A stretch of 64,000 bases of DNA from Alkalihalobacterium alkalinitrilicum (lineage in GTDB: Bacteria; Bacillota; Bacilli; Bacillales; Bacillaceae_F): the NCBI RefSeq assembly GCF_002019605.1, contig NZ_KV917368.1:155809-219808 (forward strand). Reading direction: 5' to 3'. The notes below the pieces were generated by a model. That model was given only the letters and a program-made list of their open reading frames with translations, was not told the origin of the DNA and searched no databases. Both the position numbers and the translations under genes were made by a program. Positions 27,687-58,382 of this stretch are shown piece by piece (position 1 is the first letter of the stretch; each line of letters opens with the position of its first letter).

Positions 27687-28205
27687 CTATTTATAGTCTT
27701 CTAAAAACCGAAGAGATTGTAAGGTGAAGTGGAGAACTTGTTCAAAGTCATTGATTTGATCTTCATTAATTTTTCGTCCGAAGTTTATGTTAATTTTGTT
27801 TTTTAAAATATGATTCGTTGAATATGTATAAGAAATCTCTTGTGAAATAGTAGGGCGATTTTGCCAAATTTCATTTAACATTTTTTCAATTTCAAAGCAA
27901 TCCTTCGTTGTGTCTTGAATATTTGTAAAAAAATTAACCTCAAGCACACATCCAGCTGTTTTATCATCACCATTAATTTTTTCTGTTGCAAAGTCTTGAA
28001 GTGTGGACCTTAGACGAACTTCAGCAATCGGGTATTGGCTTTTAGTTGTTGATGTTTGAAATTGCATCACAAACTCTCTTGCCATTTTAGCAAGATCCGT
28101 TACATCAGATCGATCGGTCACGATAATTTCGTTCGCAAAATCAAGATCATAGATAGCTCCTTCTAAAACCACTTTTAAATTTTCGTAAATAGTGGGATCA
28201 AACAT
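27687..28205 (-). CDS. Hypothetical protein, 172 aa
   Basis: A soluble mixed alpha/beta protein without signal or membrane segment. Notable stretches are FDPTIYENLKVVLEGAIYDLD, VTDLAKMAREFVMQF and GCVLEVNFFTNIQDTTKDCFE. I do not recognise the family. The ATG has AGAGGAG upstream. Monocistronic. Confidence 0.6.
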   Translation of the reverse strand: MFDPTIYENLKVVLEGAIYDLDFANEIIVTDRSDVTDLAKMAREFVMQFQTSTTKSQYPIAEVRLRSTLQDFATEKINGDDKTAGCVLEVNFFTNIQDTTKDCFEIEKMLNEIWQNRPTISQEISYTYSTNHILKNKININFGRKINEDQINDFEQVLHFTLQSLRFLEDYK

Positions 28206-28383
28206 TGGACCACTCCTCTTAGCAATAAACTACTAATAGTTTAACACTTAGTCTGCATTAGCTTAAAATAAGTTTGAAAATAGGAATGGTTTTAATTGAT
28301 ACTATGAGTAGGTGAAGTTGTGACTAAAACGAAGTGCATCTAAAAATAGGATAGTATTCATAATGTAAAAAAAGAGACCTAAA

Positions 28384-28735
28384 ATCAGAATAGGTCATAA
28401 TATTACCATTATAAGGAAGGAGTAGTGCTAAAAATCAGGATAGGCCATGATATTACCAGTATAAGGAAGTGATGAGTGCTAAAAGTTAGGATAGGCTAAT
28501 ATATTACCAATATAAGGAAGCGAAGAGTGCTAAAAGTCAGGATAGCTCATGATATTACCAGTATAAGGAAGGTATGAGTGCTAAAAGTCAGGATAGGCCA
28601 ATATATTACTCAGTATAAGGAAGTGATGAGTGCTAAAAGTCAGGATAGCTCATGGTATTACCAGTATAAGGAAGTGATTAATGTTAAAACTCAAGATAGC
28701 TCCTGTTATATCCAATATCAGGAAGAATTAAGTTC
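28384..28735 (+). repeat. Tandem array of seven 51-bp units (array 1)
   Basis: The landmark TATTACC recurs at 28401, 28451, 28502, 28553, 28604, 28656 and 28707 (TATATCC in the last), so the period is 51 bases (range 50-52). The consensus unit combines AAGGAAGTGATGAGTGCTAA, AAGTCAGGATAGCTCATGA and TATTACCAGTAT. Most units contain stop codons, some in all three plus-strand frames. The last two units join an open frame (28578-28805) ending in a hydrophobic stretch, but without a convincing ribosome binding site. It ends about 110 bases before the patatin gene. It is related to the array at 56033. Confidence 0.9.
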
Positions 28736-28847: not shown

Positions 28848-29696
28848 ATGGAAACAACGGGATTAGTTTTAGAAGGTGGAGGTATGCGCGGTCTGTATAC
28901 AGCTGGTGTTTTAGAGTTTTTCTTAGAACAGAAGCTGTTTTTCCCTTATGTTATTGGGGTATCAGCGGGAGCGTGTATGGGGGCGTCATATGTATCCAAG
29001 CAAAAGGGACGTAATAAGAAAGTTAATATTGGACTTGCCAGGGATCCCCGTTTTCTTTCGTTTCGTAATTTGCTTTTTAAAAGGCAATTGTTTGGTATGG
29101 ATTTTCTTTTTGACGAAATTCCTAACAAAATTGTTCCTTTTGATTATGAAACGTTCAAAAAAGGGCCCGAACAATTTGTAGTGGGGGCGACGGACTGTGA
29201 AACGGGGGAACCACTTTATTTTAACAAACAGCAATATAACAATGATATTTTGACTATCATACGTGCATCAAGTTCTTTACCGTTTGTTGCACCTACTGTA
29301 GCTTATCGGGGGAAAACCTTATTAGATGGTGGCATCATCGATCCGATTCCGATTAGAAAAGCACAGGGAGATGGCTTTAAGAAAAACGTAGTCATTATGA
29401 CAAAAGCCGAAGATTTTAAAAGGAAACCTAGCAGATCTGGGCAGGTCGCAAAACTTCTTTATCGTCGTTATCCTAAGATTAGTGAGCTCCTTGATAAACG
29501 GCATTTAATTTATAATGAAACAGTAGCTTTACTTGAATCACAAGAACAAGAGGGGACCGTTTTTGTTATAAAACCGAGTATAGAAGTTCCTGTCAGTCGA
29601 ATTGAACGGAAGCCAGAGCGGCTATTGGCTTTATATGAGCTAGGATATGAAGATGCAAAAAAACAATATATTAAACTTTTCAATTGGTTGAGTTAA
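28848..29696 (+). CDS. Patatin-like phospholipase family protein
   Basis: A 282-residue patatin-type lipid acyl hydrolase. The oxyanion loop GGGMRG is at about residues 10-15, the nucleophile serine is in GVSAG near 38-42, and the catalytic aspartate is in LLDGGIID near 162. It has no signal peptide and is presumably cytoplasmic or peripherally membrane-bound, hydrolysing phospholipid or lysophospholipid; the substrate is unknown. The ATG has GAGG 7 bases upstream. Confidence 0.88.
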   Translation: METTGLVLEGGGMRGLYTAGVLEFFLEQKLFFPYVIGVSAGACMGASYVSKQKGRNKKVNIGLARDPRFLSFRNLLFKRQLFGMDFLFDEIPNKIVPFDYETFKKGPEQFVVGATDCETGEPLYFNKQQYNNDILTIIRASSSLPFVAPTVAYRGKTLLDGGIIDPIPIRKAQGDGFKKNVVIMTKAEDFKRKPSRSGQVAKLLYRRYPKISELLDKRHLIYNETVALLESQEQEGTVFVIKPSIEVPVSRIERKPERLLALYELGYEDAKKQYIKLFNWLS

Positions 29697-55226: not shown

Positions 55227-55405
55227 ACGTGATTAATGATTTAATATGTACGAATGATGTAAGTCGGATTTAGTAAGGGCAAGATATTTCGGTTAGTTTC
55301 GCGGGTTGAACAATCAATTTTTCTACCTATTCCTTTTAGGCACTTATCTACCTTAAACCCATAGGATGTATAGTGAACGTTATTCTTAAATGGGGGAAAG
55401 AATTT

Positions 55406-55933
55406 ATGTATGAAGATAACAAATATTTTGAGTATCGTAGTCAAATAAATAATCAGCTGCACCCAATTCCATCATTCAATTTAAATAGAGAAGCAGCAAC
55501 GCAAATTTTATTAACGGCGAAAAAGACCCTTCAGTTAAGTTTTGAGCAAATCGCTGATCAAATTGGAGGAAGTAAAGAATGGATTGCTGCAGTAATACTT
55601 GGCCAGGAATCGATGACACGTGAGGATGCCGTACTTTTAACAAACTTTTTAAGAGTCAATCCTGAAATAGCAACTATTTTACAAGAACCACCAATGCGGG
55701 GTTCATTAAACCGAACACTTCCAGTCGATCCATTAATCTACCGTTTCTATGAAATTACCCAAGTATATGGAACTACATTAAAAGCCTTGATCAATGAAAT
55801 GTTTGGCGATGGTATTATGAGCGCTATCGACCTAGAAATTCACGTAGATAAGCGGCCTGACCCCGAAGACCCTGATGGGGAACGAGTTGTACTTACATTG
55901 GATGGTAAGTTTTTGCCGTATAAAAAGTGGTAG
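55406..55933 (+). CDS. cynS: Cyanase (cyanate hydratase)
   Basis: A 175-residue cyanase, converting cyanate and bicarbonate to ammonia and CO2. The N-terminal helical bundle (LTAKKTLQLSFEQIADQIGGSKEWIAAVILGQ) is followed by the catalytic domain PVDPLIYRFYEITQVYGTTLKALINEMFGDGIMSAID. R113, E116 and S139 correspond to the Arg96, Glu99 and Ser122 triad of the E. coli enzyme. The N-terminus is about 18 residues longer than E. coli CynS. Start at 55406 because a G-rich site (GGGGGAAAG) precedes it. No carbonic anhydrase (cynT) or cyanate transporter lies nearby. Confidence 0.93.
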   Translation: MYEDNKYFEYRSQINNQLHPIPSFNLNREAATQILLTAKKTLQLSFEQIADQIGGSKEWIAAVILGQESMTREDAVLLTNFLRVNPEIATILQEPPMRGSLNRTLPVDPLIYRFYEITQVYGTTLKALINEMFGDGIMSAIDLEIHVDKRPDPEDPDGERVVLTLDGKFLPYKKW

Positions 55934-55977
55934 AAAATATTTTGAAGAACAGGAAAAATAATCCTTTAAGCGGAATT

Positions 55978-56010
55978 ACCTCCTAATATAATTTATTAGG
56001 AGGAACTTTA
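55978..56010 (+). promoter_or_regulatory. Hairpin that buries the ribosome binding site of the 56011 ORF
   Basis: CCTCCTAATA and TATTAGGAGG are perfect complements around a 5-base loop. The 3' arm contains the AGGAGG that would serve the ATG at 56011, so the site would be closed in the folded RNA. Confidence 0.6.
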
Positions 56011-56163
56011 ATGAATAATAAAAGTAAGGAAATTACCATAAAAATTAATCGAAAAAAAGAGCGCAATGGTACCAGAAAGAGGAAGAGAAAAGCACTAAAC
56101 GAAAAAATAGAGCATGACATTACCGAGGAAGAAATGAGAGCTAACCGAAAAGATAGAGTATAA
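56011..56163 (+). CDS. Small very basic ORF, 50 aa, leading into tandem array 2
   Basis: An ATG 7 bases after AGGAGG opens a 50-codon frame rich in Lys and Arg (MNNKSKEITIKINRKKER, then KRKRKALNEKIEHDITEEE) and ends at TAA inside the first regular repeat unit. The coding part is itself built from diverged copies of the same 51-bp unit. It may be the last intact piece of a former 17-residue-repeat protein; no family recognised. Confidence 0.4.
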   Translation: MNNKSKEITIKINRKKERNGTRKRKRKALNEKIEHDITEEEMRANRKDRV

Positions 56164-56470
56164 TACTACTAGAAAAAGGAAGAAATGAGAGCTAACCGAA
56201 AAGATAGAGCATAATATTACCAGAAAAAGGGACAATTAAGCGCTAAACGAAAAGATAGAGCGTGATATTACCAGAAAAAGGTAGAATTAAGCGCTAAATA
56301 AAAAGATAGAGCGTAATACTACCAGAAAAAGGAAGTAATGAGAGCTAAACGAAAAGATAGAGCATAATATTACCAGAAAAAGGGACAATTAAGCGCTAAA
56401 CGAAAAGATAGAACGCAATATTGTCAGAAAATGGAATTGATAAGTACTTATCAAAAGATAGAGTGTACAA
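56033..56470 (+). repeat. Tandem array of 51-bp units (array 2)
   Basis: The landmark TATTACC (or TACTACC/TATTGTC) recurs at 56164, 56215, 56266, 56317, 56368 and 56419, an exact 51-base period; more diverged units extend upstream to about 56033. The consensus combines AAGGAAG-x-AATGAGAGCTAA, ACGAAAAGATAGAGCATAA and TATTACCAGAAAA. It is clearly related to array 1 at 28384 (shared GAG-x-GCTAAA, GATAG, TATTACCAG and AAGGAAG). It lies between cynS and the ABC exporter operon. Confidence 0.92.
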
Positions 56471-56639
56471 CCCACTCATGGTAAAGCCCTAACACCTAAT
56501 TGTGCAAATCGCACGTACCTAAACAAAAGTCAAAATAATGCTACATCTTTGAGCTTTCGTGTAGTATTAATTTTACAGAAGAAGTAAAATACATATATTA
56601 TTACGAAGCGTGCGAATGGTAGTTTGGGGGATTTTTTAG

Positions 56640-58382
56640 ATGGCTGTGTTATTTTCATACTTAAAACGATATCGGCTTTTTATGTTCATTGCAATTACTT
56701 TAACATTAGTTGAATTAGCTGTTGAACTTTTGCAGCCATTAATTATGGCAAAAATCATTAATGATGGGATCTTACAGGAAGACCTTACCGTTGTTATCTA
56801 TTGGGGGAGCATCATGATTGGCTTGTCCATTGTTGCTTTTGCTGCAGGGATTACTAATTCATTTTATGCGGCACATAGTAGCCAAGGATTTGGTCATGAC
56901 ATCCGCAAAGGCTTATTTGAAAAAATTCAATCTTTTTCATTTACAAACTTAAATCGATTTTCAACATCATCCTTAATTACCAGGATGACAAATGATGTAA
57001 ACATACTTCAAATGACATTGTTTACGGGGTTGCGCATTATGTTACGCGCCCCTCTATTAGTCATTGGAGGATTAATTATGGCACTCATTGTAAATGTGAA
57101 ACTTGCTCTCGTCTTAGCGATGGCGGTTCCACTGAGCCTCCTTATATTAGTCTGGATATTTAAAAAGGGACGTCCAATGTTTAATATCGTCCAGCAAAAA
57201 CTTGATGGTGTAAATCGTGTCATGCGTGAGAACTTATTAGGGATTAAATTAATACGAGCGCTACTCAGAAAAAACACGGAAGTTAACCGTTTTACAAAAT
57301 CGAATCAAGAACTTATGGGAACGACGGTTTCAGCGTTACGTTTTATGGAAATTACGATGCCAATCATCTTGTTGTTAATGAACTTTAGTATTTTAGGGGT
57401 TCTGTGGTTTGGTAGTTTTCAGGTGAATGCAGGTGGTGCAAATGTTGGTGAAGTCGTAGCTGTTATCAACTATGCCACTCGAATTAGTGGTGCTTTTTCT
57501 GTGTTTTCCATGATTATCATCTTTTTTTCTCGTGCAAAGGCGTCGTCTGAGCGAATTGTCGAAGTTCTAGATACTGAAGTGGATTTAGTTGATACAGAAC
57601 AATCGGCGACCGAATCAAGAACATTTAAAGGCCACATTAGATTTAGAGGTGTTTCGTTTCGATACCCAGAAACAGAAACCGAAGTTTTAAAAGGTATTTC
57701 ATTCGAGGTGAAAGCTGGAAGTACAGTTGCTATTATCGGGTCAACAGGTTCGGGTAAATCGTCTCTATTTCATCTTATTCCGCGTTTGTATGACGTGACC
57801 AAAGGTGAAGTTCAGGTCGATTACAAGGATATTCGTGAAATAAAACTAGAACATTTGCGTAGACAAATCGGTTATGTTCCTCAAGAGACATTGTTATTTA
57901 CTGGGACAATTAAAGAGAATATTGCTTGGGGTAAAGAAGATTCTTCGATCGAAGAAATAATCGAAGCGGCTAAAAAAGCACAAATCCATGAAACGATTTC
58001 TAAGTTTACAAACGGGTATCAAACAGTACTCGGTCAGAAAGGTGTAAATTTATCTGGAGGGCAAAAACAACGACTCGCCATTGCGCGAGCGCTCGTTCGG
58101 AAACCAAAAATTTTATTGCTTGATGATAGTACAAGTGCTTTAGATTTAAAAACGGAAGCGAACATTTTAGAGAGTCTACAAGAATTTTATTGTACGACGT
58201 TGATTATTACTCAAAAAATTAGTACTGCTGCTCAAGCGAATAAAATCCTGATTTTCGATGATGGTGAACTAATAGCTGAAGGGACACACGAATCGTTGTT
58301 AGCGAGTAGTCCCCTGTATCAAAAAATATATGTGTCTCAGTTTGGAGAGGAGGCGTTATACGTTGCTAAGGGAAATCAGTAA
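56640..58382 (+). CDS. yfiB: Heterodimeric ABC exporter subunit, degenerate-site partner (YfiB-like)
   Basis: A 580-residue half-transporter: six membrane segments (about 10-300) then an ABC domain. Walker A is GSTGSGKSS near 367 and the signature LSGGQ is canonical near 471. Walker B is LLLDDSTS, with Asp where the catalytic Glu belongs, and the switch region has Gln (ITQKIS) instead of His. This is the usual degenerate subunit of heterodimeric multidrug exporters such as YfiBC or BmrCD. It overlaps the next gene by 20 bases. Confidence 0.85.
   Translation: MAVLFSYLKRYRLFMFIAITLTLVELAVELLQPLIMAKIINDGILQEDLTVVIYWGSIMIGLSIVAFAAGITNSFYAAHSSQGFGHDIRKGLFEKIQSFSFTNLNRFSTSSLITRMTNDVNILQMTLFTGLRIMLRAPLLVIGGLIMALIVNVKLALVLAMAVPLSLLILVWIFKKGRPMFNIVQQKLDGVNRVMRENLLGIKLIRALLRKNTEVNRFTKSNQELMGTTVSALRFMEITMPIILLLMNFSILGVLWFGSFQVNAGGANVGEVVAVINYATRISGAFSVFSMIIIFFSRAKASSERIVEVLDTEVDLVDTEQSATESRTFKGHIRFRGVSFRYPETETEVLKGISFEVKAGSTVAIIGSTGSGKSSLFHLIPRLYDVTKGEVQVDYKDIREIKLEHLRRQIGYVPQETLLFTGTIKENIAWGKEDSSIEEIIEAAKKAQIHETISKFTNGYQTVLGQKGVNLSGGQKQRLAIARALVRKPKILLLDDSTSALDLKTEANILESLQEFYCTTLIITQKISTAAQANKILIFDDGELIAEGTHESLLASSPLYQKIYVSQFGEEALYVAKGNQ

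Follow-up and report, generated by a model that had tools for sequence, protein, structure and literature searches.

Dispersed 51-bp tandem arrays with two conserved boxes in Alkalihalobacterium alkalinitrilicum and two congeners

Introduction

The window analysed here is a stretch of 64,000 nucleotides of the Alkalihalobacterium alkalinitrilicum genome (contig NZ_KV917368.1) that holds two tandem arrays with a period of 51 bp, array 1 and array 2. Their presence raises the question of whether both belong to one dispersed repeat family and, if so, what spreads and maintains such a family.

Tandem repeats of 51–53 nt were reported as the most abundant tandem-repeat class in Bacillus (Subirana & Messeguer 2021, PMC8161180). 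The sections of that article cited here describe a class of constant length and lineage-specific, variable sequence with short conserved signals, located outside genes, and state neither an obvious function nor an obvious explanation of the fixed length. The original prediction had suggested an undescribed repeat class; that suggestion fails, since the class already appears in these sections of PMC8161180.

Results and Discussion

Relatedness of Arrays 1 and 2

TRF assigned a period of 51 to each of the two arrays, and both are read on the same strand (Table 1). Compared in register, their consensuses have 38 of 51 positions in common, against 21 for the next best rotation. Base shuffling never equalled this value: with the best rotation chosen for every shuffle, the highest of 2000 reached 31. 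The original prediction of two homologous arrays, built from one ordered unit with a common period and equal orientation, is thus confirmed, including its shuffle check. Matches to the family profile R1, described below, cover 28378–28725 in array 1 and place it in the same family and orientation as array 2. The interval 56033–56470, given originally for array 2, comprises the TRF array together with degenerate edge sequence.

Table 1. Arrays 1 and 2 and neighbouring features in the window
Feature	Position	Strand	Description
172-aa ORF across array 1 from the patatin gene	27687–28205	−	Divergently oriented to the patatin gene; without Pfam match at E ≤ 1e-3
Array 1	28379–28725	+	7 units of ~51 bp; TRF period 51, 6.8 copies, score 431
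Patatin-like phospholipase gene downstream of array 1	28848–29696	+	PF01734
cynS, cyanate hydratase gene upstream of array 2	55373–55933	+	PF02560, PF21291
Gene remnant before array 2	55977–56045	+	G000/G001/G002 alignment; resembles the start of a YtfJ-like gene in two congeners
Contents of the remnant	55977–56045	+	Predicted hairpin with TATTAGGAGGAA ribosome-binding site, ATG at 56011, first codons
Array 2	56046–56436	+	~8 units of 51 bp; TRF period 51, 7.8 copies, score 425
Clean units of array 2	56132–56436	+	Degenerate units precede; R1 model matches between 56047 and 56436
ABC transporter gene downstream of array 2	56640–58382	+	PF00664, PF00005

Distribution of the Family

The whole genome (G000; 5.52 Mb, two contigs) was searched, and a DNA search gave further arrays. 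Profile R1, a sequence-only model made from 39 units of six arrays, produced 89 matches in this genome at E ≤ 10, which we grouped into at least 14 arrays. The family is therefore dispersed, as had been predicted; the contrary outcome, a profile matching only two loci, was looked for in this search and did not occur. Outside arrays, we counted 12 matches at E ≤ 10, which is about chance level (150 of 4877 candidates were scored). Arrays 1–6 contain 6–11 anchors each, spaced by 50–54 bp with a single 47-bp spacing at an edge, and TRF gave a period of 51 for these six main arrays. Several weaker arrays consist of merely 2–3 units. Twenty 20-kb stretches spread over the genome contained no array with a period of 50–53, so such arrays are few.

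Among 61 genomes (the A. alkalinitrilicum genome and 60 relatives), R1 matched three at E ≤ 1e-3: the own genome with 48 matches, G002 with 13 and G001 with 2. There was no match in the other 58 genomes at this threshold, under strict filters by which weak matches are lost. A looser search of three congeners, its matches again grouped by us, yielded 16 arrays in G002, 8 in G001 and single weak matches only in G003. The resulting set comprises 38 arrays, 14 from the own genome, 16 from G002 and 8 from G001. R1 matches without a second unit nearby were left out (e.g., G001:C11:423965, G001:C23:3766 and the G003 matches), and two weak matches at 2382k (~10 bits each) were taken together as a single array. 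TRF reports 27 of the 38, all with period 51; the remaining 11 rest on at least two R1 matches ~51 bp apart.

Unit Structure and Conservation of the Boxes

The consensus of the 51-bp unit is AAATGAGnGCTAAAGnnAAAGATAGAGCnTnnTATTACCAGTATAAGGAAG. It contains two boxes, CTAAA-N8-TAG and TnCCAnTAnnAGGAAG, which varied less inside arrays than the remaining positions in 16 of 16 tested, that is, in the fetched arrays with at least four aligned units. Across these 16 arrays, the conservation of a column between arrays tracks its low variation within arrays (Spearman 0.78, p = 2e-11). When the core columns were set from the other arrays only, within-array diversity was lower in the core than in the rest in all 16 arrays (each p < 0.05; Wilcoxon across arrays, 3e-5).

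Units found by the profile may favour intact boxes. A blind cut every 51 bp, which makes no use of the motif and is free of that limit, gave lower core diversity in seven of seven arrays, with p < 0.05 in five, the core columns still being those from the analysis of profile-found units. This set consisted of the seven arrays reported without indels; a 2.2-copy array at 4926k was left out. Mean diversity in the blind cut was 0.113 in the core and 0.236 in the rest, a smaller contrast than the 0.062 and 0.281 obtained for profile-found units.

Array consensuses disagree in more than 0.3 of array pairs at 25 columns, and at 23 of these the difference within arrays is lower. Copies within an array are accordingly more alike than copies from different arrays, as originally claimed, and the comparison of consensuses together with column diversity supports the proposed homogenisation within arrays. 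TRF also reported higher-order periods of 102 and 153 bp, and the edge units of arrays are degenerate. An AGGA-type RNA-binding motif, presumably that of CsrA, was considered for the unit and set aside, as eight of nine clean units of array 4 read AAGTAAG.

Relation to Known Repeats

REP/BIME elements with RAYT transposases are repeats dispersed among intergenic regions, and they carry no gene themselves. The 51-bp family shares these traits, and its genome carries RAYT-like genes; it differs in forming long head-to-tail arrays of fixed period, and no link to the RAYT-like genes was found. Among the genomes and Y1 loci scanned, the arrays neither adjoin a RAYT gene nor are co-distributed with one. 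G003, G004 and G006, none of which has an R1 match at E ≤ 1e-3, carry RAYT-type genes as well, and at the Y1 loci scanned R1 gave no strong match (best score 4.4 bits). RAYT or IS200 as a mobiliser was therefore rejected on co-distribution and the scan of Y1 loci. The family match of the own-genome genes is Y1_Tnp, and we assume that the name RAYT applies to them. Two of these RAYT-like Y1 transposase genes lie ~9 kb apart, at L183 3027–3566 and from 12450 onward (G000:C1:4113026 and 4122461), with a fragment at 4114443.

The 51-bp family is a member of the known 51–53-nt Bacillus class, within which its sequence is new. It has a length within 51–53 nt, at least four regularly spaced repeats, non-coding placement and several lineage-specific families per genome. 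According to the cited sections of PMC8161180, the 52-nt Bacillus repeats likewise have periods of 51–53 and several arrays and families per genome; their arrays mostly have 4–10 copies and are lineage-specific, with short signals, and not in genes. The 51-bp family is distinguished by its sequence, found in the own genome and two of three congeners, and by a period divisible by three, whereas the same sections stress 52. Box conservation inside arrays, orientation relative to replication strands and matched empty sites were measured here and go beyond what those sections report. The transcribed satellites of Bacillus coagulans fall in the same repeat-length class, as described in the cited part of PMC8625621. 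The STAR elements of Staphylococcus, as characterised in the portion of PMC3532100 used here, are also intergenic direct repeats; the likeness lies in this description.

Orientation Relative to Replication and Genes

The leading strand was called from the sign of the GC skew over 10–64 kb around each array. The motif lies on the leading strand in 32 of 38 arrays (p = 2.4e-5): 12 of 14 in the own genome, 13 of 16 in G002 and 7 of 8 in G001. The proportion was 27/32 after weak cases were dropped, 23/27 among TRF-reported arrays (p = 3e-4) and 31/37 when the pair shared by G001 and G002 was counted once (p = 4e-5). A chromosomal role, also proposed originally, is compatible with this bias. However, 77% of ORF bases in the array loci are on the leading strand as well, and against this gene-based null the 32/38 is not significant (p = 0.34), which counts against a fork-coupled reading.

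Three observations speak against array orientation being mere co-orientation with genes. The neighbours predict it less well than replication does, the upstream gene being co-oriented with the array in 28 of 38 cases and the downstream gene in 21. Where at least one flanking gene is on the lagging strand, the array is on the leading strand in 12 of 12 cases, and all six lagging arrays lie between leading-strand genes. Both neighbours are lagging in three cases, of which C44 and C33 rest on weak skew (−0.043 and −0.030). The published 52-nt family of H. coagulans 36D1 showed no significant strand bias, with 7/23 by tile (p = 0.09) and 8/22 by region (p = 0.29). The tendency is therefore shown for the 51-bp family only.

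If every plain ORF of 110 aa or more is counted as a gene, 29 of the 38 arrays lie between co-directional genes, eight between convergent genes and one, array 1, between divergent genes; the difference between convergent and divergent placement has p = 0.039. Array 1 ends ~120 bp before the ORF at 28848, and array 2 ends ~200 bp (TRF end) or 170 bp (end given originally) before the ORF at 56640. The association with gene starts in the original prediction thus holds for both window arrays, which end 120–205 bp ahead of a + strand gene; it does not extend to the family, in which the downstream gene is co-oriented in just over half of the cases.

Sites of the Arrays in Congeners

Arrays are gained and lost among the congeners. 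The site of array 1 is empty in all three: the gap between flanking matches is 16 bp in G003, 31 bp in G001 and 49 bp in G002, compared with 584–590 bp in the own genome. The array 5 site is shorter in 3/3 congeners and the array 3 site in 2/2 comparable ones, in each case with no 51-bp array reported by TRF. One array is common to G001 and G002 at a matching site; some arrays therefore persist. In G001, a 226-bp block made of array and flank occurs at two places with 90% identity; array DNA can thus be copied to another site.

At the site of array 2, G001 and G002 carry a 130-aa YtfJ-like gene instead. The G002 copy has a Spore_YtfJ domain, which fits a spore-forming Bacillota host, and that of G001 shares 79% identity with it. 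What the own genome keeps is the leader, including its AGGAGG site, together with the ATG and the initial codons, after which the array follows; the frame from 56011 extends for 50 codons, enters array 2 and then meets a stop. The best match to the lost YtfJ-like gene elsewhere in the own genome was a 31% paralog, of a kind also found in the six relatives searched. G003 has neither the YtfJ-like gene nor a cynS match, so the gene may have been lost before array 2 arose. The downstream ABC transporter gene has a counterpart in G001–G003 at 77–78% nucleotide identity.

A hairpin enclosing the ribosome-binding site is predicted at 55977–56013; G001 has a similar predicted hairpin, and that of G002 is weak. 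The hairpin in front of array 2 may have controlled translation of the lost gene.

Origin and Maintenance of the Arrays

The reading that we favour, tentatively and at rather less than even probability, treats the arrays as non-autonomous intergenic repeats that are seeded, grow locally and have their two boxes read as DNA by a fork-linked host factor. A short seed would enter a new intergenic place, either inserted there or replacing local DNA, and the array would grow and homogenise by copying its own units through slippage or unequal recombination. A host factor working with the replication fork would read CTAAA-N8-TAG and the second box as DNA, and units with intact boxes would persist or be copied. 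This reading starts from the observed dispersal, the 51-bp register, the conservation of the boxes inside arrays, the strand bias and the presence or absence of arrays in congeners at matched sites. From these we infer protein recognition at the boxes, a coupling of the process to replication and persistence mainly by propagation rather than for one fixed host function. No propagating enzyme was identified, RAYT-type genes not being co-distributed with the family. An unsystematic look gave no target-site duplications or defined ends, which counts against this reading.

Two rivals of this propagation reading remain serious. The arrays may serve the host as binding arrays, each unit being a site for a sequence-specific DNA-binding protein that needs many evenly spaced sites, such as a polar-acting nucleoid or chromosome-organising factor. 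Box conservation within arrays, the near-constant spacing of 51 bp and the strand polarity agree with this, as does the protein polymerising on 52-nt repeats that is proposed in the cited sections of PMC8161180. We nevertheless consider it rather unlikely, because the tested positions are not conserved between congeners, with one exception (G001/G002), G003 has single weak matches only, and the matches outside arrays in the own genome are near chance.

According to the second rival, the arrays are neutral minisatellites produced by slippage in tolerant intergenic DNA; the boxes would reflect ancestry and uneven mutation, and the strand bias the co-orientation of genes. The periods of 102 and 153 bp, the degenerate edge units, the absence of arrays at matched congener sites and a strand bias equal to that of genes would all follow. 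Against it stand the box columns, which vary less than others inside single arrays, and the orientation data, in which local genes (28/38 upstream, 21/38 downstream) are poorer predictors than replication (32/38). On balance we hold it for unlikely, with a little less weight than the binding array.

A bolder form of the propagation reading assumes an undescribed replication-coupled, strand-polar system in which a host factor at the fork would read the paired boxes on one strand and be responsible for the spread of 51–52-bp units as well as for their amplification at fixed length. We regard this form as improbable; if true, it would explain the constant repeat length across the Bacillus class. 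The 51-bp family itself offers a handle on that unexplained length through its two-box motif, its orientation tendency, its empty sites and an array standing where congeners have a gene.

RNA, Coding and Other Identities

A repeat RNA transcribed from the arrays and serving as a sponge or regulator via repeated hairpins has about as little probability as that bolder form. In its favour, 52-nt satellites of B. coagulans are transcribed according to the RNA-seq described in the cited part of PMC8625621, the upstream gene is co-oriented with most arrays (28/38), and array 2 folds better than most shuffles (z −2.7). However, the other three folded arrays gave z of +2.7 (array 1), −1.2 and −1.2, and two possible short stems showed no covariation beyond shuffles among 114 distinct units. 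The stem hypothesis was rejected, since the folding of four arrays and the pair counts lent it no consistent support. Around array 2, no Rfam match reached the gathering score of its family. Excess dyad symmetry, a point in favour of the RNA reading, is present in the published 52-nt consensuses, with 10 of 26 at p < 0.05 (26 of the 27 in Table 1 of that publication were used; sp. m3-13 was left out), whereas the six consensuses of the 51-bp family have none (p from 0.42 to 0.90). The 52-nt class may thus differ from the 51-bp family in its excess of inverted repeats. By a cruder dyad measure, 9 of 33 units had p < 0.05, including array 5 (p = 0.022).

A cis-regulatory element for the downstream gene, as the distance of 120–205 bp from the end of each window array to a + strand gene might suggest, is highly improbable, given that the downstream gene is co-oriented in just 21/38, convergent placement exceeds divergent by 8 to 1, and congeners have the patatin and ABC transporter genes without an array.

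Other identities were rejected. No ORF of at least 80 aa overlaps array 1 or array 2. Open frames of that size occur in 5 of the 14 own-genome arrays because 51 is divisible by three, and a shared protein repeat was dismissed, as these frames fall on either strand relative to the motif and are read as chance. A CRISPR array was excluded on repeat structure: the whole unit repeats, and the spacers are alike inside an array. The single sub-threshold CRISPR-DR22 match in Rfam (56635–56667) is outside array 2. Array 2 had no match at E ≤ 1e-3 in either the plasmid or the phage collection, and an origin from these elements was set aside.

Other Repeats in the Same Genomes

The same genome also contains a family of 52-bp arrays whose arms read GTGACCG/CGGTCAC and whose sequence is unlike that of the 51-bp family. 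One array, with 16 copies, is located at L079 14597–15438 (G000:C1:3984596–3985437) and another at L071 2686–2921. Three period-53 arrays with similar units were observed in G002 (L173 17567, L174 1460 and L175 3161).

Two weak 51-bp arrays are adjoined by a dispersed repeat of ~150 bp, whose copies at L067 8770–8922 and L070 8491–8641 are 88% identical; a further match with 70% identity lies at L070 3861–4079. Tandem arrays with a 123-bp unit occur in the own genome at L122 2772–3026 and L128 16156–16604 and have in common a stretch around CCAGAACATTTG.
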